NCBI GenBank assembly: GCA_945883725.1
Contig: CAMCXZ010000011.1
Coordinates: 1 to 37,729 of the forward strand
From: Bifidobacterium breve
GTDB lineage: Bacteria; Actinomycetota; Actinomycetes; Nanopelagicales; Nanopelagicaceae
Direction of reading: 5' to 3'
DNA: 37,729 bases
The first letter of the stretch is position 1. Every line of letters starts with the position of its first letter. Made by a program: the position numbers and the translations under genes. Under the pieces are notes generated by a model. That model saw only the letters and a list, made by a program, of their open reading frames with translations. It was not told the DNA's origin and ran no database searches. Shown in pieces: positions 3,199 to 35,670 of this stretch.

Positions 3199-3230
3199 AA
3201 AAAAAATCGCTAATTGGCTAAATCAGCCAA
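3199..3230 (-). terminator. Possible terminator after the inhibitor-like gene
   Basis: A 6-bp perfect inverted repeat, TTGGCT/AGCCAA with a 5-base loop (3214-3230), includes the stop codon of the preceding gene. A run of eight U in the transcript (3199-3206) follows 7 bases later. That gap is longer than usual for an intrinsic terminator, so this is tentative. Confidence 0.35.
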
Positions 3231-3693
3231 CATCTACGCGTGTGATCACGCCTAACATCACTACGACAGTTACCCGATCAAAACGATAGTCCTTTGTGGT
3301 CGCAAACATCTCGCTATCTCGTTGTCCGACTCGGAACTCCCATTTGAGTGAGTCGGCACATTCATTACCTTTTTTCTCGCTCATGCCAATTAGTGCATTC
3401 GCTCTTGATTGCAAGATTCCGGATAGATCAGCTGAATCGACCTTTGGGCAAACCAGCAGATCGGTCGAACTGCCTGGCTTTGGCTTTGTGACTGCCGCTT
3501 TAACCAATACACCTTTATCCCAAACTAATTTTTTGCCATTTTTAACACAGGTGAATTTCTTGCCTTTAACAATTGATATGGTCTTTAGCTTTGTGCAGCT
3601 GGTTCCAGCTTTCGCAGTCGCACCACTTGCTTGAGGAAATGGCGCAAGACATAGAGTGAGAACCAAGAGAGACGAGAGCGTGCGCTTAAGCAT
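3223..3693 (-). CDS. Secreted small protein: WDKG module plus I78-like protease inhibitor domain
   Basis: A secreted protein of 156 residues. The ATG at 3693 is chosen over an in-frame TTG at 3708 because TATTCT ends exactly 6 bases before it, the leaderless pattern seen elsewhere in this window. A signal peptide (about residues 1-25, ending near QASGA) leads to a Cys-pair module (about 29-67) with the run [13 protein letters not shown]. The same run occurs in the large metalloprotease at 32818-35670. The C-terminal 80 residues, with two Cys and ending DYRFDRVTVVVMLGVITRVDVG-like in pattern (DYRxDR near the end, then a hydrophobic strand and a final Gly), resemble the I78 inhibitor family of serine proteases. 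The subtilase follows 123 bases downstream on the same strand, which fits a protease/inhibitor pair. The fold is read from motif resemblance only. Confidence 0.7.
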   Translation of the reverse strand: MLKRTLSSLLVLTLCLAPFPQASGATAKAGTSCTKLKTISIVKGKKFTCVKNGKKLVWDKGVLVKAAVTKPKPGSSTDLLVCPKVDSADLSGILQSRANALIGMSEKKGNECADSLKWEFRVGQRDSEMFATTKDYRFDRVTVVVMLGVITRVDVG

Positions 3694-3699
3694 GCTGTA

Positions 3700-3705
3700 A
3701 GAATA
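3700..3705 (-). promoter_or_regulatory. -10 element of a leaderless promoter
   Basis: TATTCT on the minus strand is followed by 6 bases (TACAGC) and the ATG at 3693, so transcription would begin at or next to the start codon. There is no Shine-Dalgarno sequence in between. Confidence 0.6.
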
Positions 3706-3733
3706 CAAGGCAAATCTGAATAAACCTAGATTC

Positions 3734-10223: not shown

Positions 10224-11258
10224 GTGACCGCCAAGAGCACTTCCCGAAGCGTTGAAGTAACTATTGATTTAGTTGCCGAAACTGCTGGCGTCAGTCGTGC
10301 CACGGTTTCGCGAGTTATAAATGGCAGCGCAAAAGTTTCACCGGAAACCGAAAAAGCTGTGCGCAAGGCAATCAAGAAGTATGACTTCGTCCCGAACACC
10401 ACAGCTCGCAGACTTGCTGGAGGGCGAAGCGGGCTCGTCGCTCTGGTGCTCGAAGAATCAAGCGAAGAATTCTTCCTAAATCCATTCTGGGGTTTGGTAG
10501 TTCAGGGATTTACAACTGCCATTTCTGATGCTGGCATGCAGCCTCTACTTCTGATTCGCCCGAAAACTGGAAGTGAAGACTCACTTTTTGATTCGCTAAG
10601 AAAAGCCCAAGTTGATGGAATCGCAATGTTTAGCTGGCACCGTTCTGTAAAAAGCTTTGAACGCTTACTTCCTAAAGGCGTGCCAGTGGTTTTCGGTGGT
10701 GACTTAGGCGGCTCAGATAAGTTCCCTTATGTTGATGTTGATAACGTTCAAGGTGGCTACTTAGCCACAAAGCACCTGATTTCACAGGGTTGTAAGAAAA
10801 TAGTTGCGATCACTGGCGACTTAAAGTTGCAGTCTGGCCGCGATAGATTTGAAGGTTTTGAAAAAGCTATGTCAGAGGCTGGCCGTGAAATTTCACCGGC
10901 ATCTGTTTTAACTGGTGACTATTCAACTTCAAAAGCCGAAGAAGTTGTCCGCGAGTTTCTGAAGAAGAAGATTCCATTTGATGGAATTTTCGCTGGAAAT
11001 GATTTAAGTGCAATTGGCGCAATAAATGTTTTGTTGCAAAATAAAATTGCGGTTCCAAAACAAGTTAAGGTAATTGGTTTCGATAATTCACCAGTTGTTA
11101 CTAGCTCGGTCCCAGCACTTTCAAGTATCCATCAGCCAACTCGTGAACTAGGCGCTGAGGTAGCAAACATGTTGGTATCAGCTTTAAGCGGAAATGAAGT
11201 GACAAAAAAGATGTTGCCAGTAAAACTGGTGGCCAGAGAGTCAACTGCTAAAAGTTAA
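10224..11258 (+). CDS. LacI-family transcriptional regulator of the beta-glucan locus
   Basis: A sugar-responsive DNA-binding repressor of 344 residues. The N terminus holds the LacI helix-turn-helix (about residues 14-34, TIDLVAETAGVSRATVSRVI) and a hinge helix ending TTARRLAGGRSG. The hinge Leu is the type that opens a central CG step, matching the operator found at 12709 and 19812. The rest is a periplasmic-binding-protein-like effector domain (about 68-340), with a VDVDN strand near residue 170 and VIGFDNSP near residue 290. The start is GTG behind a TAGAAT -10. Its 3' end overlaps the GH1 gene by 4 bases, tail to tail. The inducer is probably a glucose or laminari-oligosaccharide, which is inferred from the neighbours. 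Confidence 0.93.
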   Translation: MTAKSTSRSVEVTIDLVAETAGVSRATVSRVINGSAKVSPETEKAVRKAIKKYDFVPNTTARRLAGGRSGLVALVLEESSEEFFLNPFWGLVVQGFTTAISDAGMQPLLLIRPKTGSEDSLFDSLRKAQVDGIAMFSWHRSVKSFERLLPKGVPVVFGGDLGGSDKFPYVDVDNVQGGYLATKHLISQGCKKIVAITGDLKLQSGRDRFEGFEKAMSEAGREISPASVLTGDYSTSKAEEVVREFLKKKIPFDGIFAGNDLSAIGAINVLLQNKIAVPKQVKVIGFDNSPVVTSSVPALSSIHQPTRELGAEVANMLVSALSGNEVTKKMLPVKLVARESTAKS

Positions 11259-12640
11259 ATTGGGCTGTTGGTGGCAATAATTTCTTTATACTTCTTTGCA
11301 CTTAACTTAGGCGTGCGAACTAAAGTCTTATAGTCAACGCGAACTAAACCAAAGCGCTTGGCATATCCTTCGGCCCATTCAAAATTATCAAGTAGTGACC
11401 AAGCAAAGTAGCCCTTTACTGGCACACCGGCCGCGATAGCTTTTTGTAGTGACTGTAGATGGCGTACTAAGTAAGAAGTGCGCTCAACATCGTTGATGCT
11501 TCCATCAGACTCGACCACATCTTCATAAGAAGAGCCGTTTTCGGTAATCATCAGATAAGGAATCTCTGGGTAATCACGATGAACCCGCGATACCAAGTTT
11601 CCTAGACCTTCAGGAGTTACAACCCAACCCATCGCAGTCAATGACCCAGCCAAGTGTGCCGGCGGTGAATTATCGCCCTTTTGCGGGAATGGGAAAATAC
11701 CAGTGCCGTTATCTACTAAATCTTCTGGGCGCGGGTCGCGTAAGAATGAATCAGAATAATAATTAATTCCAAGGTAATCAGGTGCGCATTTAAGCAATTC
11801 TTGATCACCTGGCAGAATTACATCACTTAGCGCTTGACCATAATAATCAAGAATATTTGTTGGGTATTTGCCATAAAGCATTGCTTCAATCCACCAACGA
11901 TTAATATTTGAATCTAGTAGCGCATTTAAAGTTACTAGCTCAGAATTCTCAGGATTTTCTAAATTATGGTTAGTCATATTAACGGTTAGACCCACTTGAG
12001 CATTTGGACGAATGCTCTTTATTGTGCGAGTTGCCATTGAGTGAGCAAGCGCTGTGTGATGAGAAGCTGCGATTGCAAGTGCATGATCTTTTTTGCCAGG
12101 TGCATGAACTCCAATTGAATAACCCAACCACGCAACACACCAAGGTTCATTGAGAGTAATCCAGTTACTTACTCGATCACCAAATTCTTCGGCACAAGCA
12201 AGTGCGTAATCTGCAAATGCTTCTGCAGTTGCTCTATTTGCCCAACCGCCTGCATCTTCTAGTTGTTGCGGTAGATCCCAGTGGTACAAAGTCACCATAG
12301 GTTCGATGTCAGCTTCAATGAGCGAATCGATTAAGTTGTTATAAAAATTAAATCCTCGCTCTTCGCGTACCCCGTCACCATTAGGGAAAAGTCTTGGCCA
12401 AGCAATTGAAAAACGATATGCCTTAACGCCGAGATCTTTCATTATTTCAATATCTTCTGGATAACGATGGTAGTGATCACATGCAACATCACCGTTATCG
12501 CTGCCTACAACTTTGCCAGGAGTTTTGCTAAAGGTGTCCCAAATGCTCGCGCCACGACCATCTAGTTGTGCGGCGCCCTCGATCTGATAACTGGCAGTTG
12601 CTGTTCCCCAAAGGAAGTCATCTGGAAAAACATTTGACAT
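11255..12640 (-). CDS. GH1 family beta-glucosidase, cytoplasmic
   Basis: It hydrolyses beta-linked glucosides to glucose by the retaining mechanism. The acid/base Glu165 sits in TLNEP and the nucleophile Glu367 in ITENG. The N-terminal FPDDFLWGTATASYQIEG, given here in family form, and the C-terminal WSLLDNFEWAEGY are GH1 signatures. Length is 461 residues, usual for the family, with no signal peptide. The ATG at 12640 is chosen because GGAG lies 10 bases upstream and homologues begin at this point; an in-frame TTG at 12664 is rejected. It is divergent from a GH16 gene, and the shared region holds the LacI-type operator. It should act on imported laminari- or other gluco-oligosaccharides. Confidence 0.95.
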   Translation of the reverse strand: MSNVFPDDFLWGTATASYQIEGAAQLDGRGASIWDTFSKTPGKVVGSDNGDVACDHYHRYPEDIEIMKDLGVKAYRFSIAWPRLFPNGDGVREERGFNFYNNLIDSLIEADIEPMVTLYHWDLPQQLEDAGGWANRATAEAFADYALACAEEFGDRVSNWITLNEPWCVAWLGYSIGVHAPGKKDHALAIAASHHTALAHSMATRTIKSIRPNAQVGLTVNMTNHNLENPENSELVTLNALLDSNINRWWIEAMLYGKYPTNILDYYGQALSDVILPGDQELLKCAPDYLGINYYSDSFLRDPRPEDLVDNGTGIFPFPQKGDNSPPAHLAGSLTAMGWVVTPEGLGNLVSRVHRDYPEIPYLMITENGSSYEDVVESDGSINDVERTSYLVRHLQSLQKAIAAGVPVKGYFAWSLLDNFEWAEGYAKRFGLVRVDYKTLVRTPKLSAKKYKEIIATNSPI

Positions 12641-12650
12641 AAAATTAGAA

Positions 12651-12654
12651 CTCC
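12651..12654 (-). promoter_or_regulatory. Ribosome binding site deciding the GH1 start
   Basis: GGAG on the minus strand, 10 bases before the ATG at 12640. It lies downstream of the rejected TTG at 12664. Confidence 0.6.
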
Positions 12655-12708
12655 GTTTCGGCAATTTCTACCCCTATACTTTCATACAAGAGCCTTATAA
12701 ACCGCCCT

Positions 12709-12722
12709 TGAAAGCGGTTTCA
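12709..12722. promoter_or_regulatory. LacI-type operator, copy 1
   Basis: TGAAAGCGGTTTCA matches the LacI-family consensus TGNAANCGNTTNCA, with a central CG and palindromic TGAAA/TTTCA arms. It lies between the divergent GH1 (ATG 12640) and GH16 (ATG 12756) genes, and its left end overlaps a -35-like TTGAAA (12708-12713). An identical 14-mer lies at 19812. A matching -10 could not be assigned with confidence. Confidence 0.85.
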
Positions 12723-12745
12723 TATCCTCAAACCCTATCCTATTT

Positions 12746-12750
12746 GGAGG
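12746..12750 (+). promoter_or_regulatory. Ribosome binding site deciding the GH16 start
   Basis: GGAGG, 5 bases before the ATG at 12756. This is a strong site and rules out the longer reading that would begin inside the operator at 12708. Confidence 0.8.
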
Positions 12751-12755
12751 CCAGA

Positions 12756-13559
12756 ATGTTAAGTTCAAATGCGAAAACATTGCTCTGGTCAGAAGAATTT
12801 CTTCCCACCCATGACGGACAGCCGAACCCCGAGATATGGACTCCTGACTTAGGCGATGGCTCGCAATTTGGTTTGACCGGATGGGGAAATCATGAACGTG
12901 AGTTCTACACAACCAATTCTTTGGTTGCTGATAACGGGTTGATAATCACAGCAGCTCGCGAACCAGGAATTTCTAGTATCGAAACTTATTATGGACCCGC
13001 TGAATGGACGAGTGGAAAAATACATACCAATGGCAAGCTCTACTTAAAATATGGATACCTAGAAATTTTGGCAAAAATGCCTAAAGGTATTGGAACCTGG
13101 CCAGCTCTTTGGCTGCTAGGTAAAAGTATTTCTGAGGGAACCGCTTGGCCAGCTTGTGGTGAGATTGACCTCTTTGAAGGAAACGGCGCAAAGCCAAAAA
13201 CTATTCAAGGAACGCTACACGCTACTGGATATGCCGGTGAATTTGGAATTACTGGTTTCCATGAAAGCTTGGATGATCTATCGGCAAATTTTAATCGATT
13301 CGCAATTGATTGGCGAGAAGACACAATTGAGTGGTTCTTTAATAATCAACCGTTTCAGAAATTCACTCGAGATAAGGGTGACTTCGCTGGTAAAGCCTGG
13401 CCATTTAATGATTACTTTTATCTAATCATTAACCAAGCTATCGGTGGCTGGTTTGTGGGTGAGGTTGACCCACTGCTACAGGAAAGCAAATTAGAAATTG
13501 CTCACATCAAGCACTTCATGATTGACGGTGTTGGTGAAGTCTTAAGAGTTAACGCTTAA
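12756..13559 (+). CDS. GH16 endo-beta-1,3-glucanase (laminarinase-type) without signal peptide
   Basis: A retaining endo-glucanase of 267 residues. The catalytic motif is Glu136-Ile-Asp138-Leu-Phe-Glu141, the ExDxxE spacing of laminarinases rather than the ExDxE of lichenases. Other GH16 marks are WGNHEREFYT near residue 45, EWTSGKI near 84 and YGYLEILAKMPKGIGTWPALWLLG near 100-125, cited for orientation. The protein begins MLSSNAKTLLWSEEF with no signal peptide or membrane helix, so it should be cytoplasmic, unlike the other two GH16 proteins here. A GGAGG site 5 bases upstream fixes the start. It lies divergent to GH1 with the operator between, and overlaps the next GH16 gene by 11 bases tail to tail. 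It would cut imported laminari-oligosaccharides before GH1 finishes them. Confidence 0.92.
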   Translation: MLSSNAKTLLWSEEFLPTHDGQPNPEIWTPDLGDGSQFGLTGWGNHEREFYTTNSLVADNGLIITAAREPGISSIETYYGPAEWTSGKIHTNGKLYLKYGYLEILAKMPKGIGTWPALWLLGKSISEGTAWPACGEIDLFEGNGAKPKTIQGTLHATGYAGEFGITGFHESLDDLSANFNRFAIDWREDTIEWFFNNQPFQKFTRDKGDFAGKAWPFNDYFYLIINQAIGGWFVGEVDPLLQESKLEIAHIKHFMIDGVGEVLRVNA

Positions 13560-14934
13560 TTACTTCGCCTACTCCATTGATTGAGTAAACCCGAATGTAA
13601 TCAAATTCCATTGATGAATCTGTCAGATTTGCTGCAATTTCCCCACCTAAATTACCGCCCATTGCTAAGTTAATGATGATGTAGAACTCATGGTCAAAAA
13701 CCCAGTCTTTATCAACCTTATTTAAGGTTGCAAACGGAACTCCATCTAAGAAGTAGCGAATTTGATCAGGTAGCCAATCGACTGCGTAGGTGTGATATCC
13801 GGCGTGATGAGGAGTTGCCATCTCAACTTTGTCACCACGACCACCTCCGCCTGAAAGCGGTCCGTGAATGTAGCCAAGATTAGTATTTGGCAATCGACCT
13901 AAAAGTTCGGTCACATCAATTTCACCGCAGCCAGGCCAACCTCGGTCATCGATATCTGCTCCAAGTAACCAGAAGGCTCCCCAAGTTCCACTTCCAACCG
14001 GACCTTTTATTCGAGCTTCCAGGCGGCCGTACTTAAATCCAACTTTATCTTTCGTGACCAACTTAGTGCTTGTCCACTCACAAGGTCCTTTGTAGTAACA
14101 ACTATTTACACCAGCACCAGTTTTTGTAGCCTTAATTACATATGATCCCGAACCATTGGTGGAGGAAATCTTGTCGTCATACCATTGTCTTTCGTTATTG
14201 CCCCAGCCACGATTTCCAAATGCTACGCCATCACCATTTTGGGCAACCCAAACCGTCGGGTCAGCTGGTGCTCCTGCGGGTCCGTTGAATTCTTCCGACC
14301 AAATCTGTTTATATGTTCGAGTGATGTTTGCAATGGCAACTGTGTTAGAAGTCTTCTTTGCTGAGACAAAACCTTTAGCCACAAAATTTACTTTGAGTGA
14401 AATATCGGTGCCTAAATCTGAAGTTGTTAAATTGTAGGTGCTCTTTGTTGCGCCTTTGATTTCAAAATATCCGACATACCATTGGTAGGTTGGCTTGGCT
14501 GTCGTGGGAATACTTTGTGGTAGCACCGCAATTTCCATGACCTTGTCATCACTTGGACGCACACGAATTGTTAAGGAATCAGATAAAAGAACATTTCCGA
14601 TCGTAATTGTGTTTGATTTTGCCGCAACAGATTTTCCATCATCGAAAATATGTGTCTCGCGCAATTGTAATTTCTTTTTATTATCGCTGCTTTTTAACTT
14701 AAGAGTTAGGGCCGAAGTGGCTAAAACCTTACCGTTTAGCAGCCATTCAAAGGAACTTGGTCCATTATCTGACCACTTAGCCGGGGTGGCTGTAAAGGTA
14801 TATCCGGTTGAACCAGCTGTAATTTTTGGCAAAGCTATTGGCTTCTTCAAATCTTCACCATGCGCTGCAATCATGGAAAAAGATGAAACGCTCAATGCCA
14901 AAGCGGCAATTAATGCTAGAACTTTGCGATACAT
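13549..14934 (-). CDS. Secreted GH16 endo-beta-1,3-glucanase with two N-terminal Ig-like domains
   Basis: A secreted laminarinase-type enzyme of 461 residues. A signal peptide (about 1-27) is followed by two Ig-like domains (about 35-110 and 115-200) and then the GH16 catalytic domain (about 210-455). The active site is Glu338-Ile-Asp340-Val-Thr-Glu343 in GCGEIDVTELLG. The domain matches its cytoplasmic paralogue over WGN-ER-Y, EWTS and GTW-FWLLG, and ends in the same tail, GVGEV. The Ig-like domains may hold the enzyme at the cell wall or bind glucan. It is the last gene of the probable operon that starts with the sugar-binding protein at 19720. A strong hairpin lies just upstream, in the gap after the modular protein gene. 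Confidence 0.93.
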   Translation of the reverse strand: MYRKVLALIAALALSVSSFSMIAAHGEDLKKPIALPKITAGSTGYTFTATPAKWSDNGPSSFEWLLNGKVLATSALTLKLKSSDNKKKLQLRETHIFDDGKSVAAKSNTITIGNVLLSDSLTIRVRPSDDKVMEIAVLPQSIPTTAKPTYQWYVGYFEIKGATKSTYNLTTSDLGTDISLKVNFVAKGFVSAKKTSNTVAIANITRTYKQIWSEEFNGPAGAPADPTVWVAQNGDGVAFGNRGWGNNERQWYDDKISSTNGSGSYVIKATKTGAGVNSCYYKGPCEWTSTKLVTKDKVGFKYGRLEARIKGPVGSGTWGAFWLLGADIDDRGWPGCGEIDVTELLGRLPNTNLGYIHGPLSGGGGRGDKVEMATPHHAGYHTYAVDWLPDQIRYFLDGVPFATLNKVDKDWVFDHEFYIIINLAMGGNLGGEIAANLTDSSMEFDYIRVYSINGVGEVIKR

Positions 14935-14999: not shown

Positions 15000-16454
15000 C
15001 TACTTAACCGTAACTTCTAATTTGTAGGTCTTACCCGCAATTACAACCGATACAGTTTTCTTTCCTGCAGTAACGGTGTACTTGAAAGCTTGATTTGCAA
15101 CCGAGATCTTTTCAGTTACTTTCTTATTTCCAGTAATTGAGATAGCAGCTGTCTTTCCTGATGCGTTAGCAATTGCCACGGTAAGTGAATAAACAGTCTT
15201 GCCCTTAACAGTTGCCTTTGATGAGGTTGCTTTTACTGAAACTGCAGTAGAAGCTGGCACGGCAGCAACAGCTGCATCACCAACAAAGTGGAATTCCACC
15301 ATGTCAGCGATATCTATAGCTTCGCCAGCAATTTCTGGAAAAATCTGGCTGTATAAACCGTTAGTTGTTGGTGTAGGGGTAGTTAGCGAAGCAGGAACTG
15401 GTTCGCCCTTTTTGTCAGTGTTCTTAAGGGCGAATAGAACGTAGCCAAAACCATCAGTGGTACCTGTTAGCACCAATTGATCATTACCTTGCGAGTTGTC
15501 CTTCTTTGGATCTGTCGCATTGGTGCCATTCGCCATGCCAGCCTTCGAGTTGCTATAGGCCTTGTTCACACGAAGTTTCACGGTTGCATTGGGAAGAGGC
15601 TTACCATTGTCATCGGTAACTTTGTAAACCAGATTAATAGCTGATCCAGTTTGAACATAAGCTTCGCGGTAGCCAATTCCTTTGGCATACCAACTGTTCT
15701 CAACGCTTAACCTATTCTCTATATCAGCACGCTTAATTGAGTTAGCATCAGTCAAAACTGGTGAAACTAAGCGAATTGTAGGCTTTAGGGCAGTTTGAAC
15801 TGCCGGTGTCTTTGGGTCGTAATAATGGAATTCAGTAATAACTGAATGATCTGGCTTTTCGCCCGCTACTTCTGGAAATACCTGTGCGTGAAGATCGTTT
15901 AATCCATCAGGAGTAATATCTGGCTTAGCGGTCATCGATTCTGGTTCTGGTTCGCCAGTTCCTGGCTTATCAAGATTCTTCATTACAAATGTCACGTTTC
16001 CGTAAGCATCTGTCTTATGTGTTACTTGTGCCTGGTCGGCTGATACTGGCTTATGTACACCAGTTGTTATTTTGTCATCGACTTGAACAATTGCAGAAGA
16101 ATTTGAGTGGCCCTTATTGATGCGAAGTTTCACATCTTGACCAACTAGGATTTTTCCGTTCTTATCAGTTACGTTGTAGGTCAAAACAACTGTTGATCCA
16201 GTTGGCACGAATGCGCGTTGGAAAACCAAACCAGTTCCAAACCAATCATTGCCAACCCATTCATCTGCCAACTTTTGGTTTTTAGCAGCTTCACTTGTAT
16301 TTTCTGCGGTAAGAACTGGGCTAATCAATTTGATGACTGCATCCTGCGGTGGATCTCCTGCGGCCATAGCCGGAGCTGATACAGCGCTTGATAAAGCAAG
16401 CACAGTTATAGTGGCAGCAAAACTAGCAAGTACTTTCTTTGTCTTGATACTCAT
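15000..16454 (-). CDS. Secreted protein with two Big-1-like modules, beta-glucan locus (unrecognised family)
   Basis: A secreted protein of 484 residues that I cannot assign to a named family. A signal peptide ends near residue 31 (APAMAAG). Two homologous modules follow, about 42-220 and 227-395. Each has a start like RLVSPVLT, a core TGS-I-L-YKVTDDNGKPLPNATVKLRVNKAYSNS, cited in part, a TDGFGYVLFALKNTD strand and an end like QIFPEIAGE-D-VEFH. The VTD-GKP-P-A-V core looks like an invasin-type Big-1 Ig fold. A final beta-rich domain (about 400-484) lies at the C terminus. AGAGGA 6 bases before the ATG fixes the start. It sits between the permease gene and a secreted GH16 gene. A glucan-binding or surface-anchoring role is inference. 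Confidence 0.8.
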   Translation of the reverse strand: MSIKTKKVLASFAATITVLALSSAVSAPAMAAGDPPQDAVIKLISPVLTAENTSEAAKNQKLADEWVGNDWFGTGLVFQRAFVPTGSTVVLTYNVTDKNGKILVGQDVKLRINKGHSNSSAIVQVDDKITTGVHKPVSADQAQVTHKTDAYGNVTFVMKNLDKPGTGEPEPESMTAKPDITPDGLNDLHAQVFPEVAGEKPDHSVITEFHYYDPKTPAVQTALKPTIRLVSPVLTDANSIKRADIENRLSVENSWYAKGIGYREAYVQTGSAINLVYKVTDDNGKPLPNATVKLRVNKAYSNSKAGMANGTNATDPKKDNSQGNDQLVLTGTTDGFGYVLFALKNTDKKGEPVPASLTTPTPTTNGLYSQIFPEIAGEAIDIADMVEFHFVGDAAVAAVPASTAVSVKATSSKATVKGKTVYSLTVAIANASGKTAAISITGNKKVTEKISVANQAFKYTVTAGKKTVSVVIAGKTYKLEVTVK

Positions 16455-16519
16455 TTATCTTCCTCTTTCTTTTGCTTTTGTATTGTGTGCTTACTTTTCT
16501 CATGTCCCGCGAAAAATTC

Positions 16520-17362
16520 TTATCCTTTTACCGCTCCATCCATTACGCCGCTAACCAATTTGCGGCCCACAAAGATAAAGAGAATTAATAGCGGCGCGGT
16601 TGCCAAGAAAGCTCCGCCCATCTGAAGTGCGTAATCGAGTCCATACATCGGCTTAAGTTGAGTGAGTGCAACTTGGAGGGTGAAATTTTGTGGACTCTGC
16701 AAAACGATAGTCGGCCACAAGTAGTCGTTCCAAGAGGCCAAGAAGGCGAATAAACCAAGTACAAATGAGCTTTGGCGAATGATCGGAAGCACTATGCCAA
16801 AGAAAATACGTGGAACGCTCGCACCGTCAATGCTCGCAGCTTCGAGAAGTTCATTTGGTACTTGAGCGTCAATAATTTGCCGCATCCAAAATACGCCAAA
16901 GGCGGTAACTAGCGCCGGCACAATTAGTGCATACAGAGTGTCGACCATTTGTAGGTTTTTTACCAGAATGAAGAGTGGAATGATGCCCAACTGGCTAGGC
17001 AGCATCATGGTTCCAACGATGAAAAGAATAAAGAACTTGCGACCCTTGAAGTTCAGTTTTGCAAAGGCAAACCCGGCAAAAGCTGAGAAAATAACTTGAG
17101 CAACGGCGATAGAGATACCGACTATAAATGTGTTCATCAGAGCGGTATTGAAATAGACACCTTCGGCGCTAAGTACCTTCTGAGCAACAATTAGGAATCT
17201 GCCACCAGGGACTAGTGAGGGTGGACTCTTGGAGATTTCAGCATTTGTATTGGATGAAACTACGAACATCCAATAGAACGGAAAAATTGAAAGAAATGTA
17301 ATTGCGGCAAGGGCCACATAACTAAGTGGTGAAGTGCGCTGCCATTTTGGAATCTTCTCCAT
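16520..17362 (-). CDS. Sugar ABC transporter permease (MalG-type)
   Basis: The second membrane subunit of a carbohydrate uptake (CUT1) importer, 280 residues with six predicted helices. The EAA loop that contacts the ATPase is clear: EAASIDGASVPRIFFGIVLP near residue 175. An N-terminal helix with FPFYWMFVVSSN is typical of MalG-like proteins. Its ATG overlaps the stop of the MalF-type gene by one base (TAATG), so the two are translationally coupled. The 65 bases after its stop lead directly to the secreted modular protein gene, with no terminator. No ATPase gene is in the window. Confidence 0.93.
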   Translation of the reverse strand: MEKIPKWQRTSPLSYVALAAITFLSIFPFYWMFVVSSNTNAEISKSPPSLVPGGRFLIVAQKVLSAEGVYFNTALMNTFIVGISIAVAQVIFSAFAGFAFAKLNFKGRKFFILFIVGTMMLPSQLGIIPLFILVKNLQMVDTLYALIVPALVTAFGVFWMRQIIDAQVPNELLEAASIDGASVPRIFFGIVLPIIRQSSFVLGLFAFLASWNDYLWPTIVLQSPQNFTLQVALTQLKPMYGLDYALQMGGAFLATAPLLILFIFVGRKLVSGVMDGAVKG

Positions 17363-18351
17363 TATCGCCCACTTCCATCGTTGGAAATGCGACGAGTTAT
17401 TAGGAAATTGATCACCGAAATAATTAGAACAATGATGGTGATTGCGATTCCGATAGCTGCGGCATAGCCATACTTGTTATTGACGAATGCTTGGTTATAA
17501 AGAAAGAGAGTCAAGGTCAAGAACTGCTTGCTTGATCCACCATCTGCTGCCAGCTGTTGCGGTTCAGCAAATACTTGTAAGCCACCAATTGTGCCTACAA
17601 CCAAAACGAAAGTGATTGTATTTTTAAGCTGTGGCAACGTTACGTAGATGAATTGCTGCCATTTAGTAGCACCATCAACGGATGCTGACTCATAAAGCTC
17701 GTCAGGAATAGCCAGCATGGAAGCTAAGAAGATCAGCGTGTTATAGCCAACCCAGCGCCAAGTAATCATGGCGGCGATCTGAATGTGGCTCGGGACCACG
17801 CCCTCAATGAAGTCAATATTGTCAACGCCAAATATTCCAAGAATTCCGTTAATGATTCCAAAATCTCGACCAAATAGCTGTCCAAAAACAATAGTGATCG
17901 CAATTACGGAAGTGATATTTGGAACCAAGAAAATAGTTCTCCAAAAAGATGCTCCACGCAAACGCTTGCTTCTAAGAATTACAGCTAGCCCGATAGCCAT
18001 GGCCATTTGTGGAAATGTAGAAAGTGCCCAGATGCTAAAAGTGTTACGAATTGCTAACCAAAAATCAGAGTCACCCCACAGAGTTACGAAATTCTGCACC
18101 CCGTTGAAGGTTGATCCGCCAAGTGGATCCCATTTATAAAATGAAATGTAAATCGAATAAATAACTGGAGCCAGTCCGAAAATTAGGAAAATCACAAAAA
18201 ACGGAGCAATAAACGGAATACCGAAACGATGGTCTAAAGAGGCAACGCCCTCAATTGGTTTATTAGCTTTAGCAACCTTTTTTGGATTAGCTGATTTCCA
18301 AGGTGAGAGAGGCGCCTTGCGGCGCCCCTCTTTACCCTTTGAATTGCTCAT
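17362..18351 (-). CDS. Sugar ABC transporter permease (MalF-type)
   Basis: The first membrane subunit of the CUT1 importer, 329 residues. A basic, Pro-rich cytoplasmic tail of about 45 residues precedes the first helix (FGIPFIAPFFVIFLIFGLAP). Five more helices follow, and the EAA loop is YESASVDGATKWQQFIYVTLP near residue 225. Only a weak ribosome site is visible, so translation may depend on the binding-protein gene 28 bases upstream. It forms a heterodimer with the MalG-type protein. The likely substrate is a beta-gluco-oligosaccharide, inferred from the adjacent GH16 and GH1 genes. Confidence 0.93.
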   Translation of the reverse strand: MSNSKGKEGRRKAPLSPWKSANPKKVAKANKPIEGVASLDHRFGIPFIAPFFVIFLIFGLAPVIYSIYISFYKWDPLGGSTFNGVQNFVTLWGDSDFWLAIRNTFSIWALSTFPQMAMAIGLAVILRSKRLRGASFWRTIFLVPNITSVIAITIVFGQLFGRDFGIINGILGIFGVDNIDFIEGVVPSHIQIAAMITWRWVGYNTLIFLASMLAIPDELYESASVDGATKWQQFIYVTLPQLKNTITFVLVVGTIGGLQVFAEPQQLAADGGSSKQFLTLTLFLYNQAFVNNKYGYAAAIGIAITIIVLIISVINFLITRRISNDGSGR

Positions 18352-18379
18352 TAGTTTTTCAATACCTAGTTATAAATAT

Positions 18380-19720
18380 CTAGTTATTGATAACTTTTTT
18401 GATATCGACGAGTACTTGAGCCCATGATTTAGCGGCTGTCATTTTCTTTGCAGCCACTCGTCCTAGGCCAGCACCAATTGCTTGATCAATAGAACGTTGT
18501 AGTTTGCCTTCAAAGATTGGCTTCACCTTTGAAACACCCGCAGCGTAGATCTTCCCAACTGGGGCGTTATTAAAGAATGGATCCTTGTAGTTAAGCAAAG
18601 CAGCATCGTCATACAAAACCGAAGCAGCCGGGAACAAGCCGTAGGTCTTAAATACCTTTAGTTGTTGCTCTGGAGCTAGGTACCAACTGATGAAGTCATA
18701 TGCCTCTTGTGAATTTTTGGCATAAGAAGGAACTGCTAGTTGAGTGCCACCTTGGTTACCTCCACCACCAGGAAGAGCAGCAATGTCCCATTTACCAGCA
18801 GTATCTGGGGCCTGACTCTTTATGTAATCCATCATCCAGGCTGGAGCCAAAATAGTTGCGAAAGCTCCCTTATTCATTCCGATATTCCAGTCAGATGTGT
18901 ACTGACCAATACGGGTTCCGATACCTGCTTCAGTTGCTTTAATCGTAGTGTCCCAGGCCTTTTTAACCTGTGGATTTGTGCTATAAATTAATTTTCCTGC
19001 ATCGGTGCCGTCATTCTTGTAATACTTTTCAGTACCTTGATTCATGATTGCGGAATAAATAGTTCCCGCGTTATCAAGGAATCCTTTGCCAGCTTTCTTA
19101 TCTGCAGCACTTAACTTTGAATTGTACTTAACACCGGTAGCGATGAACTTGTCCCAAGTTGGCCATAGTTTTCCAACTGCGCCACGCTCGGTAGGAAGTC
19201 CAGCTTTTTTGAATAGATCAACTCGGTAGGCAACTTCAAGTCCGCCGACATCTGTTGGGAATCCGATAACGCTGTCGTCATAACCAACGCCTTGTTCCCA
19301 GCGCCATGGCAAGTAATTCTTCTTGAAGTCCAGGGCAGTCTTGCCCGCTGGAATATCCGCTTTAACGTTTGCCTCTGATGTTTTCATCGTACGCAAATCA
19401 GTAAAGCACTTTGGATATGAGCGCCAGTATCCGGAGTATTGAACTTCAACGGCCACAACATCTGGGCCAGTCTTAGAGGTACATGCGGTAACCATATTTG
19501 TACCATTTAGTGCGTCTAAATCTGATTTCTTGATTTCCAAAGTAATTTCAGGATGTAGGGCCTTATATTCTTTTACTAGCGTGCGCTGAATAACATCGCC
19601 AAAGGTCCAGATACTAATCGTTACATCTGCTGCACGAGCTGGGGTGCCCAGAACGCCAGCTGCCAAAATTGCCGCGGTTGAAACGGCAATCGAGCCTCTA
19701 AATAAGGTCTTCTTACGCAT
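18380..19720 (-). CDS. Extracellular sugar-binding protein of ABC importer
   Basis: The solute-binding lipoprotein-like or secreted subunit (family 1) of the importer, 446 residues. A signal peptide (about 1-30, ending TPARAAD) is followed by ISIWTFGDV, the usual first strand. Later marks are GPDVVAVEV near 90, YQVDLFKKAGLP-like (YRVDLFKKAGLP) near 160 and the WNIGMNKGAFATILAPAWM region near 290. There is no Cys lipobox. The ATG at 19720 is chosen because AAAGGAG lies 5 bases upstream; a 19-residue longer reading from 19777 would cover that site. It is the first gene of the minus-strand operon and has the operator about 92 bases upstream. Substrate is inferred as laminari-oligosaccharide. Confidence 0.93.
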   Translation of the reverse strand: MRKKTLFRGSIAVSTAAILAAGVLGTPARAADVTISIWTFGDVIQRTLVKEYKALHPEITLEIKKSDLDALNGTNMVTACTSKTGPDVVAVEVQYSGYWRSYPKCFTDLRTMKTSEANVKADIPAGKTALDFKKNYLPWRWEQGVGYDDSVIGFPTDVGGLEVAYRVDLFKKAGLPTERGAVGKLWPTWDKFIATGVKYNSKLSAADKKAGKGFLDNAGTIYSAIMNQGTEKYYKNDGTDAGKLIYSTNPQVKKAWDTTIKATEAGIGTRIGQYTSDWNIGMNKGAFATILAPAWMMDYIKSQAPDTAGKWDIAALPGGGGNQGGTQLAVPSYAKNSQEAYDFISWYLAPEQQLKVFKTYGLFPAASVLYDDAALLNYKDPFFNNAPVGKIYAAGVSKVKPIFEGKLQRSIDQAIGAGLGRVAAKKMTAAKSWAQVLVDIKKVINN

Positions 19721-19725
19721 ACCAA

Positions 19726-19732
19726 CTCCTTT
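19726..19732 (-). promoter_or_regulatory. Ribosome binding site deciding the binding-protein start
   Basis: AAAGGAG on the minus strand, 5 bases before the ATG at 19720. It is one of the strongest ribosome sites in the window, fitting high expression of a binding protein. Confidence 0.85.
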
Positions 19733-19811
19733 ATATTGAACAGCGCTAACAAAAAAGTTATCGTTTCGTAGTACCAATTTACCCGACCTAGAGGTAGGCT
19801 CTTACGCACCA

Positions 19812-19825
19812 TGAAAGCGGTTTCA
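19812..19825. promoter_or_regulatory. LacI-type operator, copy 2
   Basis: TGAAAGCGGTTTCA, identical in all 14 bases to the site at 12709. It sits between the divergent binding-protein gene (ATG 19720) and secreted GH16 gene (GTG 19934), so one site can control both transcripts. Confidence 0.87.
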
Positions 19826-19933
19826 CACTACTGTATCTAAGTGTGTAATTGCTAGGAGCGCAACACCAATTGCTTAGAGTTAAGATTTGTTATCAAAGCG
19901 TGACTGAGTAGGCAGGAAAGAGGAAATAGCAGC

Positions 19934-20860
19934 GTGAACCAGATCCGGAAGTCCCGAGTGCGGGTGTCGGCCCTAGTGTCGGCTTCAATTTTGGCGACCT
20001 CGATTATTGCCATTATGCCTGCCACTATTTCTCAAGCTGCCGGGCCTAAAGTGCTCAAGCTTCTCTGGTCTGATGAATTTAATGGCAAGAAAGGCGCACT
20101 GCCATCTTCGAAGAATTGGGAATACGACATAGGAAACGGTTATGGGTGGGGCAACGCCGAACTTGAGTACTACACGAATAAACCTGCCAATATTTCAACC
20201 GATGGCAAAGGCAAATTAGTAATCTCGGCAAATCGAATTTCTGACTCGCAAGGTAATGCCACTGATAACTCGAGCGCTACGACTAAAATTCTAGATACTT
20301 GTTGGGAATGCCAATTTACTAGTGCCAAAATAAAGACCTCCAAAAAAGTACAGTTTCAATATGGGCGCTTAGAGGCTCGGATGAAAGTTGCTCCGGGTGA
20401 AGGTACTTGGCCAGCTTTTTGGATGCTCGGTGCTGATTTGCTCGATGGTAATCCTTGGCCCGAATGTGGCGAAATTGATATCGTCGAAACTCGCGGCGTA
20501 GAACCATATTTCCTTTCGGCAGTTCTGCATGGTCCAGGTTACGGAAAAGGACCTGGAGTAGGCGGGTCGTACCAAAACCCAGCGCCACTTAGTGATGCCT
20601 ACCATGTATATGCGATTGAATGGAAAAAGGATAAAATTGATTTCTATTTTAACGATCGCCTAATCTCAAGTGAAACTCCCGCTTCAGTAAAACCCGGGAA
20701 CTGGGTTTTCAATCAAAAGTTTTTCATAATTCTAAATCTGGCAATGGGCGGCGAGTTCGGCGGGACAATTGATCCAGCAATAAAGCAAACTCAACTATTT
20801 GTTGATTACATCCGCTATTACTCAGTGGATGGAACCGGCAAAGTAACCAAACAAAAATAG
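19934..20860 (+). CDS. Secreted GH16 endo-beta-1,3-glucanase
   Basis: A secreted laminarinase-type enzyme of 308 residues. A long basic N-terminal stretch leads into a signal peptide ending near residue 35 (ISQAAG). The GH16 domain fills the rest. Its active site is Glu180-Ile-Asp182-Ile-Val-Glu185 in ECGEIDIVETRG, with WGNAELEYYT near residue 75 and CEFTSAKI-like CQFTSAKI near 125. It lacks the Ig-like domains of its paralogue but has the same kind of C-terminal tail (DGTGKV). The start is GTG with AGAGG 10 bases upstream. The second modular protein follows 53 bases downstream on the same strand, and the operator lies about 110 bases upstream. Confidence 0.92.
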   Translation: MNQIRKSRVRVSALVSASILATSIIAIMPATISQAAGPKVLKLLWSDEFNGKKGALPSSKNWEYDIGNGYGWGNAELEYYTNKPANISTDGKGKLVISANRISDSQGNATDNSSATTKILDTCWECQFTSAKIKTSKKVQFQYGRLEARMKVAPGEGTWPAFWMLGADLLDGNPWPECGEIDIVETRGVEPYFLSAVLHGPGYGKGPGVGGSYQNPAPLSDAYHVYAIEWKKDKIDFYFNDRLISSETPASVKPGNWVFNQKFFIILNLAMGGEFGGTIDPAIKQTQLFVDYIRYYSVDGTGKVTKQK

Positions 20861-20913
20861 AATAATGAGTAAAATTGTTTCATTCGAGTATCTACTCTAA
20901 TTAGGAGGCAAGC

Positions 20914-22494
20914 ATGAAGGCTACAGAAAGAATGCTCAAGATAGCGGTTTTATTTGTAACTGGCGTGCTCTCATTCAGTCTCCTCAGTCCACCGCTTCAA
21001 GCTGCCACAAGCACTCATGCCATTAGATTAGTGAAGGCGGATTCAGCTGGATTTGCTTGGATATTAGAAAACAAAGCGGCCCAAGCTGACTATACGAATT
21101 TTACCCAGTACTACACCCCGGCTGTAAAACTGCAGATGGTTATTGCCCCGGTTGGGGGCACATTGAATTTGAAGTGGAAAGTTACCGACGCACAAGGCAA
21201 GGCTGTGCCTAACACAGATGTGACATTAGTACTCAATCCCGCATACACAAATGGAACTGCAAATACGATTTCTGAAGATGGCCAAACTATCCCGCTTGCA
21301 AAAGGTGGTTCAAAAGATGGCTTTGATATCCCACTAAAGACAGATGCCGATGGTTTTGTTTTTTACACTTTGACAAATCAAGACACTAAAGGTGATAAGA
21401 ATATACCTAACGATGGATCAACTGTTCCTGACTACCAATCTGCTTTTGTATACACACAAGTGCAACTTTGGGTGGGAAATTTCACCTCGCGGGAAGAAAG
21501 AGATCCTGTTCGAAAAACTCAAGATCAAGACATTCTTGAAATCCACTTTACAGAGGGCGTCAAAGCTGAAAAGTCAGGTGTAGCAAAACCGACTCCGACA
21601 GTTACGAAGGAGCCCGTAGTGATAAAAACTCCTTCAATCAGATTGATCTCACCCGTCTATAATGACAAAAACAGCGTCGATTCAACAATCGATATTGTGA
21701 AATTTTTTACAGAGAAAAGTAAATCTTTCTACACTTATGTTGAAGCTGGAACAAAAATATCACTGACTTATCAGGTTACTTTAGACGGAACTACTGTTGC
21801 TGCAAAGCAATTAATTAAATTACAAGTTAACTCCTCTTACAGTGAGTCAAACGCGAGTTGGAAGACATCAACTGGTGTGACTGTTAAAGGGCAAAAAGGC
21901 GCAGATCCTGGGCTAGAACTTTCTGGTACGACTGATGAGTCAGGCAAAGTTACCTTTGTTATTGAAAATATAGATGTAGATAAATTAGAGGATTTCCCAT
22001 CCTCTCCAATTCAGTCTCGAGATAAAATCACACCAGGAAGACTTTTCGGAACCTTTAAACCGATATTCCCTGATAAAGGTGATAGCGAAGCAGATGTTGA
22101 TTTGGTAACTTTTGATATAACTAAGTCGGCGACTGCAACACCTGCTCCGACACCGTCGGCAACACCAACACCGACACCGTCGGCAACACCAACACCGACA
22201 CCGTCGGCTACGCCAACACCAACACCAACGCCCACCGTTACAACGGCGGCTCCAGTAGCTCAGATAATTGCAGCAGTTGCAACTTCGCTGAAGGTAGGAA
22301 AGTCATTAACGCTTCCAGCTAAAAGCACTGCAGGAATTTCAGTCAAGTGGGTCTCTACTACAAAGACAATCTGTACTGTCTCTGGCAGCAAAGTAACTGC
22401 GAAGAAAAAGGGTTCTTGTTCAGTAACTGGCACAAATGCTGGCGATGCTAAGAACACCGCCCTTTCAGTAACAAAGAAAATCACGGTAAAATAA
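20914..22494 (+). CDS. Secreted protein with two Big-1-like modules and Big-2-like C-terminal domain (unrecognised family)
   Basis: Paralogue of the modular protein at 15000-16454, 526 residues. A signal peptide ends near residue 31 (LQAATS). Two copies of the module follow, about 37-215 and 242-410. Each starts with IRLV or IRLIS, has a TLNLKWKVTD or KISLTYQVT core, N-AY-N or NSSYSES, then a DADGFVFYTLTNQD or TDESGKVTFVIENID strand. A PTPSAT linker (about 412-450) leads to a Big-2-like Ig domain (about 451-526) with VKWVSTTKTICTVSGSKVTA. AGGAGG upstream fixes the start. It follows the secreted GH16 gene and ends at a strong terminator. Function is not known; glucan binding is a guess from position. 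Confidence 0.8.
   Translation: MKATERMLKIAVLFVTGVLSFSLLSPPLQAATSTHAIRLVKADSAGFAWILENKAAQADYTNFTQYYTPAVKLQMVIAPVGGTLNLKWKVTDAQGKAVPNTDVTLVLNPAYTNGTANTISEDGQTIPLAKGGSKDGFDIPLKTDADGFVFYTLTNQDTKGDKNIPNDGSTVPDYQSAFVYTQVQLWVGNFTSREERDPVRKTQDQDILEIHFTEGVKAEKSGVAKPTPTVTKEPVVIKTPSIRLISPVYNDKNSVDSTIDIVKFFTEKSKSFYTYVEAGTKISLTYQVTLDGTTVAAKQLIKLQVNSSYSESNASWKTSTGVTVKGQKGADPGLELSGTTDESGKVTFVIENIDVDKLEDFPSSPIQSRDKITPGRLFGTFKPIFPDKGDSEADVDLVTFDITKSATATPAPTPSATPTPTPSATPTPTPSATPTPTPTPTVTTAAPVAQIIAAVATSLKVGKSLTLPAKSTAGISVKWVSTTKTICTVSGSKVTAKKKGSCSVTGTNAGDAKNTALSVTKKITVK
22147..22218 (+). repeat. Three 24-base tandem units coding a Pro-Thr-Ser-Ala linker
   Basis: Units at 22147, 22171 and 22195 differ by two bases in the third copy. 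They encode PTPSATPT repeated. The same 24-base design occurs on the other strand in the large metalloprotease gene at 35297-35440. Confidence 0.9.
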
Positions 22495-32817: not shown

Positions 32818-35670
32818 TTAGTTTTCAACCAAGAGCGAAATGGACTTTGCAATCATTTTAACGGCATCATCCCAAGGTAGGCCGAAATGCTGCTCAAATG
32901 ATTTCTCAAAAGTCATTCCCTTAGATATATCAGTAAAAATCTGGATATTTATTGCTGGGCCCTTAATAGCTGTAAAAACTTCTGAAACCAGCATGCCCAA
33001 ATCATAAAGATGCCAACTTTCTCTTCCATCTTCTCGCCACGCTGAAGTATCAGGAGGTTTAATGAAATTTTCGATCCACTTTTCTGTGTATTTCTTATCT
33101 TTATTAGTCAAAAGTTCGTTGGCTTCATTCTTTCTTTCCTCTGAATATTTGGCAAATGAATTTGCATAAATGATCGCAAGTTGTGAAAAATTTGCCCCGC
33201 CTTCGACAAACCACCATGGAGCAAATGCCTTGATGCAGCACATTGCTTGATTTTGATTACCGGTGCCAAAGAAACTACTTATTTGCAGAACATGGGTATA
33301 TTCGTGCGCTTCTAAAGTGCCAGACGTGTGATTTTTATCAGGGTTACTGGTCATAACCGCAGAGAGAATTATACCGTTACCTAAACCGTTAATGGTTCCA
33401 CTTGCACCCCAGCAATATTCAATTTTCTGGCAACCATTCTTAGCTTCTTGGCCATTTGCATTTGCATACACTTCTGCATACTTCTTTTGCGCCCAATCTA
33501 TATCGGCATATGAGTAGTAAATTGCAAATACCTTTTCTGGGCTTTTAAATTCCGGATACAACCTTGACGCAGCGGAGATAGCACTCGCGGGATCCGGATT
33601 AGAAAGCTTTGTATTTGGCCCAATGATTAATTCAACAATTGGGCCTTTGGTGTTATTGCTTAATGCCTGGTCACTACTTTTCTTCCAAGCCCAATACGAA
33701 ACGTCGTTGGGTCTATCGACAGCATCCTGAAAACTCTTGATTTCTTTCGGCTCGACTATCGTTGGCGGGGACGTTAGCTTCGTAATCTCTATCGTCTCGT
33801 AATCACCAGTTCCAACAACTTTTATGCGAACGCCCTCTATGACAAAAGAGTCACCAAGGACTGCTACATATTCGCCTAAGTACTTCCTGTCCCCCACGTT
33901 TACATTAAATTGATTTGATCGCTCGCCTTGAACCTTCTGCCAGACAGCCCAGGCCCAATCATCATTCCCAAGTGAGGTTCCGTCAGAATTGATTGGAGGT
34001 CGAACATTCTTATCTAAATCAACGATATAGGCCATAACAGAGTAGAAGCCAGGCGGAAATTCTCGGTCACCGAATTTAGTGTTACTCCACTTATCGATTC
34101 CATGTGATTCAACAACAATAGCTTTCGTTGGAGACAATCTTATGACCGCCATCTTGGTTTGACGATCTTCACGCTCTACGGGCGATAAGGAAATTGTTGC
34201 ACTCTTTAGATTTGCCACATCGTCACAATAGATTTGATCGGCCGGCAACCAATCGAAGAGAAATTGCTCCCATGGATTTAGTGCCAGGCTTATCCCAGAT
34301 TGGTTGGTTCCAATGCTTAGGGGCCAACCATTTCCTGGAGCGTGCATTGTAATATTAAAATCATGCATGGTCTCGTGTATGTAATAGGACCATTTAAGGG
34401 TTTCCATTCCCTCTAAATTACGCCCCCAACTGAAAAGGTTTAAATTAACATCCCCTTCTTTGGTTTTAAAGACTTGATTGCGGATAATGAAGTCGACAAA
34501 AGTTATCTCACCATCTGGGTAGAAAAAGTAGACAGTTGAAAACTTGCGTAGGTCAACAACTTTTGTTATCTCATCGATAAAAGGTTGTGCCTGATTTGCC
34601 ATGCGACGACCGTGATCTGCGGCAAACGCATCAACTGTCTTTGCATCGCTCGGATAGGCTGCTCGCTCTTTCGGCATCCGCAGCCAATTATCTACTGTCG
34701 TGACATTAAATTTTGATTGTCCATTACTAAAGTATTCGTACCAGTCGGTCATCCACTTCTTGTCATACTCGAGTTGAGTTATCACCTCACTTCCACCAGG
34801 AAAATCGGGGAAATCAATGGGAACAATTAAGACCTCATTTGTTCCCTTCAAATTCATTCGATGCTTATTGCTGTTGACGAGTGGGAAGCCAACTAGTCCC
34901 GAGTTGCCATCTTTAACTGCTGAAGCACTATTTTGTAATCTGCAGACATCAATCGAGACTGGGCTTTGGGCATTTTCAAAAGTTGACTTAACCGTGTTTA
35001 TCTTTATCCATTTAAGTTGTCCTCCGTTTACCCAACGACATTCAAGAATGCCCCCCGTAATGTCAAAAGTATCTCCTGAATTTGCGCAGGTTAAGTTCTC
35101 CAGAGGAGTTACTGCGTAGTTATTTGATTTTGATGATGAAACTTGGGAAGTCTTGTAGTAACGCCATTGAACGTTCTTCAGAAAATCAACAGTTGGTCCA
35201 CCACCCCAAACACATTTCATGAACCCGTTATTGTCGGCGACCTTTGCGCCAATTTTTGTACAGGATGTTCCCGAAATAGGAAGTTGTATAACGGGCGTTG
35301 GTGAAGGAGTAGCCGTCGGCGTTGGTGAAGGAGTAGCTGTCGGTGTTGGTGAAGGAGTAGCCGTCGGTGTTGGTGAAGCAGTAGCCGTCGGTGTTGGTGA
35401 CGGCGTAGCTGTCGGCGTTGGTGACGGCGTAGCCGTCGGGGTTGGTGAAGGAGTTGGAGTTGCCTTTTTGATCAAGACGCCTTTATCCCAGACTAACTTT
35501 TTGCCATTCTTAATACAGGTATAGGTCTTATTCTTGTAAATAGTTTTTTGCTTAAAGGTCTTACATGCACTTCCTGGCGCTATCTTCGTTGCAGAAAAAG
35601 CTGACAACGGGAAAAGGGAAATTACGAGTGCTAGAACTAGCCCCTTGTAAAGATTCCGATTTGAGCACAT
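32818..35670 (-). CDS. Large secreted protein with two HExxH metalloprotease domains
   Basis: A secreted protein of 950 residues with two separate zinc-protease signatures. A signal peptide (about 1-26) is followed by a Cys-pair module with [13 protein letters not shown] (about 33-68), a PTPTATPS linker (about 70-127) and two more degenerate Cys-pair modules (about 135-175 and 195-225). The first protease domain (about 275-680) looks like the M6 (immune inhibitor A) type: [25 protein letters not shown], then His432-Glu433-Thr-Met-His436 and a possible third ligand at His443. The second (about 690-950) has His789-Glu790-Tyr-Thr-His793 and Glu823 in WWFVEGGAN, a gluzincin pattern. TAGACT ends 6 bases before the ATG at 35670, so it is probably leaderless. 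The substrate is unknown. Confidence 0.85.
35297..35440 (-). repeat. Six 24-base tandem units coding a Pro-Thr-Ala-Ser linker
   Basis: Units start at 35297, 35321, 35345, 35369, 35393 and 35417, with scattered single-base differences, followed by a truncated unit to about 35463. On the minus strand they encode PTPTATPS. The unit is of the same type as that at 22147. Confidence 0.9.

Follow-up and report, generated by a model that had tools for sequence, protein, structure and literature searches.

An Ig-like module encoded beside GH16 genes in Nanopelagicaceae and its possible role in laminarin utilization

The window analyzed here, a stretch of 37,729 nucleotides, is contig C11 of a 1.34-Mb, 86% complete genome (G000) of the family Nanopelagicaceae. 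It encodes two secreted proteins, P1 (15000-16454) and P2 (20914-22494), each of which was credited by a first-pass annotation with two copies of a module of about 165-180 residues. Open reading frames (ORFs) at these positions and an alignment of the four copies over 194 columns bear this out, and the repeat is not a chance resemblance, as a profile of the four modules matches 25 of the 135 genomes of the genus, one of them being that of the window. We describe the module as an elaborated immunoglobulin (Ig)-like domain whose genes lie, in the order at large, mostly close to genes of glycoside hydrolase family GH16, and we discuss what it may contribute to the use of beta-1,3-glucans.

The locus and its products

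The following features were recognized (window coordinates, strand, assignment and basis).

10224-11258, plus: LacI-type regulator (many LacI-family NCBIfam models, all below their own cut-offs)
11255-12664, minus: GH1 beta-glucosidase (TIGR03356, 563.8 bits, cut-off 478.5)
12708-13559, plus: GH16 without evident signal peptide, by eye (PF00722, 70.4 bits)
13549-14934, minus: GH16b, secreted, beta-1,3-glucanase-like, downstream of P1 (PF00722, 72.8 bits, cut-off 22)
15000-16454, minus: P1, secreted, 484 aa, with signal peptide, two modules and C-terminal Ig-like domain (ORF; PF05688, 35.2 bits)
15819-16337, minus: module 1a, P1 residues 40-212 (module alignment, profile; 33-sequence clade of first P1 modules)
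15276-15776, minus: module 1b, P1 residues 227-393 (module alignment, profile; single-module model; 22-sequence clade)
15003-15245, minus: C-terminal Ig-like domain of P1, residues 404-484
16520-17362, minus: ABC permease 2, sugar type (UgpE/MalG-type models, below cut-off)
17362-18351, minus: ABC permease 1, sugar type (UgpA/MalF-type models, below cut-off)
18380-19777, minus: ABC sugar-binding protein, SBP (PF13416/PF01547; top-scoring solved relative 8bfy)
19934-20860, plus: GH16c, secreted, beta-1,3-glucanase-like, upstream of P2 (PF00722, 75.6 bits, cut-off 22)
20914-22494, plus: P2, secreted, 526 aa, with signal peptide, two modules, Pro/Thr-rich linker and C-terminal Big-like domain (ORF; PF05688, 31.1 bits)
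21013-21555, plus: module 2a, P2 residues 34-214 (module alignment, profile)
21631-22122, plus: module 2b, P2 residues 240-403 (module alignment, profile)
22276-22491, plus: C-terminal Big-like domain of P2, about residues 455-526 (weak aBig_2 match, PF20578, 15.6 bits, cut-off 27)

On the minus strand the genes run in the order SBP, permease 1, permease 2, P1, GH16b, and divergently, on the plus strand, GH16c is followed by P2. Each module protein is indeed placed beside a secreted GH16, as first annotated, in opposite order on opposite strands (P1 then GH16 on minus, GH16 then P2 on plus), the signal peptides of GH16b and GH16c having been read by eye. These two secreted pairings stand, but a third GH16 (12708-13559, plus strand), without an evident signal peptide and probably cytoplasmic, has to be added to the count. 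The closest solved relatives of GH16b are laminarinases and beta-1,3-glucanases, those of GH16c are 3atg (a glucanase) and beta-1,3-glucanases, and 8bfy, the top-scoring solved relative of the SBP, is a putative secreted cellobiose-binding protein. With LacI, GH1, three GH16, two permeases and the sugar-binding protein, the locus has the appearance of a complete system of the laminarin type.

The signal-less GH16 adjoins the GH1 gene, an arrangement kept in many relatives, and is a candidate intracellular laminarinase for imported oligosaccharides, which suggests that these can be long. The SBP carries a Sec-like signal in which no lipobox cysteine is seen by eye, even though the genome encodes Lgt; this is unusual for a monoderm. 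Genes for tRNA-Glu and tRNA-Gln directly follow P2 (22553-22732). The secreted proteins encoded at 3223-3708 and 32818-35670 have in common a short segment with two cysteines that follows the signal peptide; inspection by eye of the latter, a possible metallopeptidase, also reveals two HExxH motifs and a Pro/Thr linker.

Sequence, fold and genomic coupling of the module

Compared with the first of the four window modules, the others exhibit 43, 27 and 28% identity, and 18 columns of the alignment are invariant. The RL(I/V)SP opening by which the module had been described is exact in two copies, but module 1a reads KLISP and module 2a RLVKA. Both P1 and P2 begin with a Sec-type signal and lack a lipobox cysteine (by eye). 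The module had been called unrecognized, which is correct only in part: the whole-protein scores of P1 and P2 given above exceed the 27.4-bit threshold of PF05688 (BIg21, presumably the former DUF824), but the BIg21 model does not cover the whole module. The best stretches span positions 1-84 or 2-85 of the 109 in the profile and correspond to a core of about 82 residues, common to P1 and P2, of the approximately 170 in the module, whose three inserts (AB, DE and FG) are only partly covered. Some relatives score below the cut-off (L051 20.7, L060 19.5 and L062 14.7 bits), and many shorter relatives of P2 carry no Pfam label. As this core is part of an Ig-like family already described, the novelty is moderate; in the open-licence literature we found no publication naming PF05688 or dealing with the module, and the single paper that mentions DUF824 is, judging by its title, about phage defence. 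Membership in Big_1 proper was rejected (PF02369, 16.8 bits against a cut-off of 34.9 in P1; P2 not listed).

An AlphaFold2 model of P1 was obtained with a pLDDT of 83.5, and a model of module 1b by itself with a pLDDT of 96.2 and a pTM of 0.90. The latter is predicted to be a two-sheet Ig-like sandwich of the invasin/macroglobulin type with approximately 75 extra residues; compared with the Big_1 domains of invasin and intimin, the Ig fold is similar and about 75 of the 171 module residues remain unaligned. The earlier description of the core as Big-1-like agrees with the fold in the model. The fold neighbours listed by Foldseek and VIA comprise complement/macroglobulin, invasin, intimin, FdeC, GH2 Ig and other Ig-like or beta-sandwich domains; the structure prediction suggested at first pass gave a confident Ig-fold model, and no carbohydrate-binding module (CBM) is among the rows listed. 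A viral-library search with the module yielded mostly phage Big-1 and uncharacterized proteins. According to the models, the module is an elaborated bacterial Ig-like domain of the BIg21/Big_1/macroglobulin fold.

In a diverse set of up to 54 modules, 80-100% have an aromatic residue at positions 255, 256, 266, 277, 300 and 368 (P1 numbering); three of these positions, occupied by W255, Y256 and Y300 in module 1b, lie outside the strands. Acidic residues are kept at D334 (43/54 modules), E351 (37/54) and D384 (42/53). D334 sits in the TD-x-x-G turn, which is usual in Big_1 domains, and judging from the sequence the module is unlikely to be an enzyme.

The first-pass annotation proposed that the module and GH16 are functionally coupled and suggested a profile search with a test of GH16 proximity; the outcome is stronger than the window alone shows. 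In the genus, 25 genomes match the four-module profile, 25 match GH16 PF00722, and 24, including that of the window, match both. In the order (296 genomes), 34 are matched by a profile of 39 modules, GH16 is present in 35, 33 have both and 260 neither (Fisher p 3e-40, without correction for relatedness), so that 33 of the 36 genomes with either have both. The only genome with a module and no GH16 is G151 (61% complete, the module near the end of a 4-kb contig), and the two with GH16 and no module are G060 and G301 (a 125-aa open frame). Profile A2 holds rows from genomes of the genus, which therefore score high by construction; the nine positives from outside the genus contributed no rows to it. 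An ORF was tagged as GH16 above 50 bits to a GH16 of the window and as a module ORF above 40 bits; 76 module ORFs were obtained in the order, 62 of which lie within 1 kb of a GH16, 69 within 5 kb and 8 in the same polypeptide. He_PIG, another Ig-like family taken as a control in the same 34 genomes, has 34 ORFs (hand-counted) in 20 genomes, of which one (G024:C27) has a GH16 within 5 kb; for the control as for the test, neighbours beyond a contig break go unseen. In G060 we observed a GH16 locus (L083) of the same ABC type that has no module; there, a gene that by eye resembles an oxidoreductase separates the permease from GH16.

The gene order is likewise kept, a neighbour being defined as the next taggable ORF, so that an untagged gene in between would be missed. 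In 25 of the 30 P1-type ORFs, permease 2 is found upstream and GH16 downstream on one strand; of the other five, two have permease 2 and P2, one has permease 2 and no other tagged gene up to the contig end, and two follow GH16c. Sixteen of the 23 P2-type ORFs come after GH16c on the same strand. A discrete module within a carbohydrate-active enzyme, the arrangement by which CBMs are defined, is found in the eight fused ORFs of the order and in three ORFs at other loci, namely a 988-aa protein of G423, L159:12854-14356 and L176:3113-7438. The module is connected to GH16 by Pro/Thr linkers in L062 and L065.

The sample of the class (394 genomes) provided five module matches, including G000 and G283, with those in G481 and G398 being weak. 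G423 is from a different family. Its locus comprises two GH16, SBP, permeases, GH1 and LacI, after which come three long module ORFs (best module matches of 51, 29 and 25 bits, the last two weak), and on a separate contig it encodes the GH16-module fusion mentioned above, with a module match of 76 bits. A contig scan of 84,980 named genomes, made with one peptide pattern from the P1 profile and thus favouring P1 orthologues, returned 37 loci, all actinobacterial by title, although such titles are unreliable, that of L150 being Bifidobacterium breve. Of these, 20 were assessed, the other 17 being taken from their equal length as contigs already counted, as is L170 (G298) among the 20; 12 of the 20 have GH16 on the stretch. 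In L169, L171, L180 and L181 we observed module proteins beside GH1 without GH16 (four modules in each of the first three, L181 being cut), with an oligopeptide-type ABC transporter recognized by Pfam in L169 and by gene sizes only in the other three, and with a LacI relative in L169, L180 and L181; perhaps these loci serve a different beta-glucoside.

In a midpoint-rooted tree of 153 modules, 33 of the 35 P1a modules form one clade (support 1.0) and all 22 P1b modules another (support 0.974), and the P2 modules are scattered. Eleven module sequences from fused ORFs occupy five places, the largest such group having a support of 0.25; because of this dispersal, fusion of the module to GH16 may have occurred repeatedly.

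C-terminal tails and a second accessory domain

Lgt was found in all 21 genomes of the family searched, and sortase (PF04203) in none of them. Orthologues of P1 and P2 end in an Ig-like domain, in a Pro/Thr linker with a Big-like domain, or in a basic two-cysteine tail of 29 residues with the consensus TTITCVKGKxTKKVTAVxPKCPxGYKKK, which is found at the C-termini in L049, L059, L061, L062, L064, L069, L073 and L076. Matches to the tail occur in 19 of the 21 family genomes, at 17-23 places in five, at 10 and 6 places in two further ones and at 1-4 in twelve, some of them being repeats within one ORF; they are spread genome-wide in G061, G062, G063, G066 and G067, and the window's genome has them at G000:C21:21062-21148, C19:5995-6081 and C12:1603-1683. 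In the class, the tail was found in 33 of 394 genomes, 32 of which belong to Nanopelagicaceae. For 17 of 18 tail stretches read by pattern, the protein ends 3-4 residues beyond the tail, and by eye most seem to start with a signal peptide; L200 differs in that the motif comes after the signal peptide. No Pfam family is listed over the tail of L059, the one tailed protein examined. From these sequence features, the tail is a candidate surface-retention or sorting tag.

In the long module proteins L051, L063, L064 and L078 a second domain was delineated by eye outside the modules, and its five aligned copies exhibit 19-40% identity to the first. Its profile matches PDB 8qx6, a 'PKD domain-containing protein', with E 3.6e-10 over positions 81-176 of 186, i.e. 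half its length; 8qx6 is presumably a CBM for laminarin from a protein of marine Bacteroidota. No Pfam assignment exceeds its cut-off, one copy having a weak CBM_4_9 match (16.3 bits, cut-off 25.9), and no publication on 8QX6 or on CBM102/CBM103 was found in the open-licence literature.

What the module may do

We give an even chance to the reading, drawn from sequence comparison, that the module is an accessory, beta-1,3-glucan-binding component of an actinobacterial laminarin-utilization locus. Glucan binding is ranked above the roles of anchor, spacer and adhesin because the module is fused to GH16 in some genomes and free beside GH16 in others, and a beta-1,3-glucan is the presumed substrate because the module's neighbours are the laminarinase-like GH16b and GH16c, the GH1 beta-glucosidase and the cellobiose-binding-like SBP. 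The co-occurrence with GH16, the conserved aromatic positions and the 8qx6-related second domain also count in favour of this reading. By analogy, the module would probably act both in cis, in the fusions, and in trans, as in P1 and P2, resembling SGBP-B rather than SusD. In trans, P1 and P2 would hold laminarin, and perhaps the GH16 enzymes too, close to the cell, where GH16b and GH16c would cut it; in cis, the module joined to GH16, sometimes by Pro/Thr linkers, would work in the fashion of a CBM. The products would then enter via the ABC transporter, to be finished inside the cell by the signal-less GH16 and GH1.

Several observations weigh against this reading. Seven of the 76 module ORFs have no GH16 on the stretch examined; six of them are on contigs shorter than 5 kb or at a contig end, and the 833-aa module protein L078 (G147) lies well inside its contig and is without GH16. 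Of the 20 loci assessed beyond the order, five have GH1 without GH16 and three have neither; in one of the latter, L166, none of the five tested neighbours, which include a phosphate transporter and a glycosyltransferase, is a carbohydrate-utilization gene. The module matches no CBM model in Pfam, profiles of P1 and of the module gave no convincing sequence match and no CBM among solved chains, and CBMs, including CBM39, are missing from the Foldseek and VIA rows listed for the module, which excludes nothing. Three of the aromatic positions (266, 277 and 368) fall within strands, where they could belong to the core. Mean conservation is lower in the three inserts than in several strands (mean top frequency 0.36-0.38 against 0.34-0.60 for the strands), and Ig modules are frequently plain spacers.

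The alternative that fares best, although we consider it somewhat unlikely, is that the modules, without contacting glucan, attach to the cell envelope or to the enzymes and retain GH16 and its products close to the cell. With no lipobox (by eye) in P1 and P2 and no sortase in the family genomes searched, some other means of retention is needed, and cohesins, which are scaffold-docking domains, come up at ranks 4, 7 and 9 when Foldseek is queried with the single module (E 1.2e-3 to 2.2e-3, TMq 0.31-0.37), which keeps the scaffold version alive; however, they are absent from the 50 VIA rows listed. A general anchor would be expected on many kinds of secreted proteins, yet the module is concentrated near GH16, and the C-terminal tails of the P1 and P2 orthologues, one of which is common to many unrelated secreted proteins, are likelier anchors. 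It is improbable that the modules are passive Ig spacers providing length and flexibility alone, like Big_1 stalks: invasin, intimin and FdeC domains are indeed among the fold neighbours, tandem copies occur and the inserts are not highly conserved on average, but P1 and P2 contain little besides modules, so there is nothing to space, P1a and P1b form separate, well-supported clades, and most modules retain certain aromatic and polar residues located outside the strands. Least probable of all is a particle adhesin attaching the cell to algal or fungal surfaces instead of catching soluble glucan, for which the invasin-type fold and the tandem modules could speak, but the position of P1 in line with the ABC transporter genes fits oligosaccharide uptake better.

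The glucan-binding reading can be compared with known systems. The first-pass annotation likened the role to that of SusD; encoding with an endo-glucanase, as for SGBP-B, was found, but homology to SusD was rejected, no SusD family being among the matches of P1 and P2 at E up to 1 and a lipobox cysteine being absent (by eye). In Bacteroides, SGBP-A/B are encoded with GH16 and GH158, and SGBP-B is a glucan-binding accessory protein whose sequence differs widely from species to species and whose glucan locus may include GH16 (PMC7157763). The module resembles it in lying in the same glucan locus as an endo-glucanase (69/76 ORFs within 5 kb of GH16), but in the window uptake is by ABC transporter instead of a SusC-like protein, P1 and P2 lack a lipobox, and there is no convincing sequence match to solved chains. 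GH16, GH1, ABC transporter and solute-binding protein, as in the window, appear as terms in a paper on mixed-linkage glucan use by the Gram-positive Blautia producta (PMC10318527), and a paper on flavobacteria describes GH16_3 joined to laminarin-binding domains (PMC11345257). A further parallel is offered by insect proteins. Insect beta-glucan recognition proteins join an Ig-like, glucan-binding CBM39 to a GH16-type domain, an arrangement like the one proposed for the fusions; no relation between the two was found among the fold rows listed. A wider claim from the sequences, which we advance tentatively as a possibility, is that P1 and P2 are the first representatives of a novel family of Ig-fold modules that bind beta-1,3-glucan, and that they constitute, with their exchangeable C-terminal tails, a surface glucan-capture system of sortase-less, monoderm, planktonic Actinomycetota, i.e. 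an SGBP counterpart that feeds a cellobiose-type ABC transporter, not SusC/D.

Few freshwater bacteria are as common as the Nanopelagicaceae (acI), and laminarin is one of the main products of algae; the module may bear on how such minute monoderm cells keep the benefit of their secreted laminarinases. During a bloom in the North Sea, the activity of Nanopelagicales appeared to be linked with diatoms (PMC10108472). With both present in 33 of the 36 genomes that have either module or GH16, the module is a genetic marker of the laminarin trait, and if glucan binding is true, it would represent a new CBM-type family, and P1 and P2 SGBP-like proteins, in the Nanopelagicaceae lineage.

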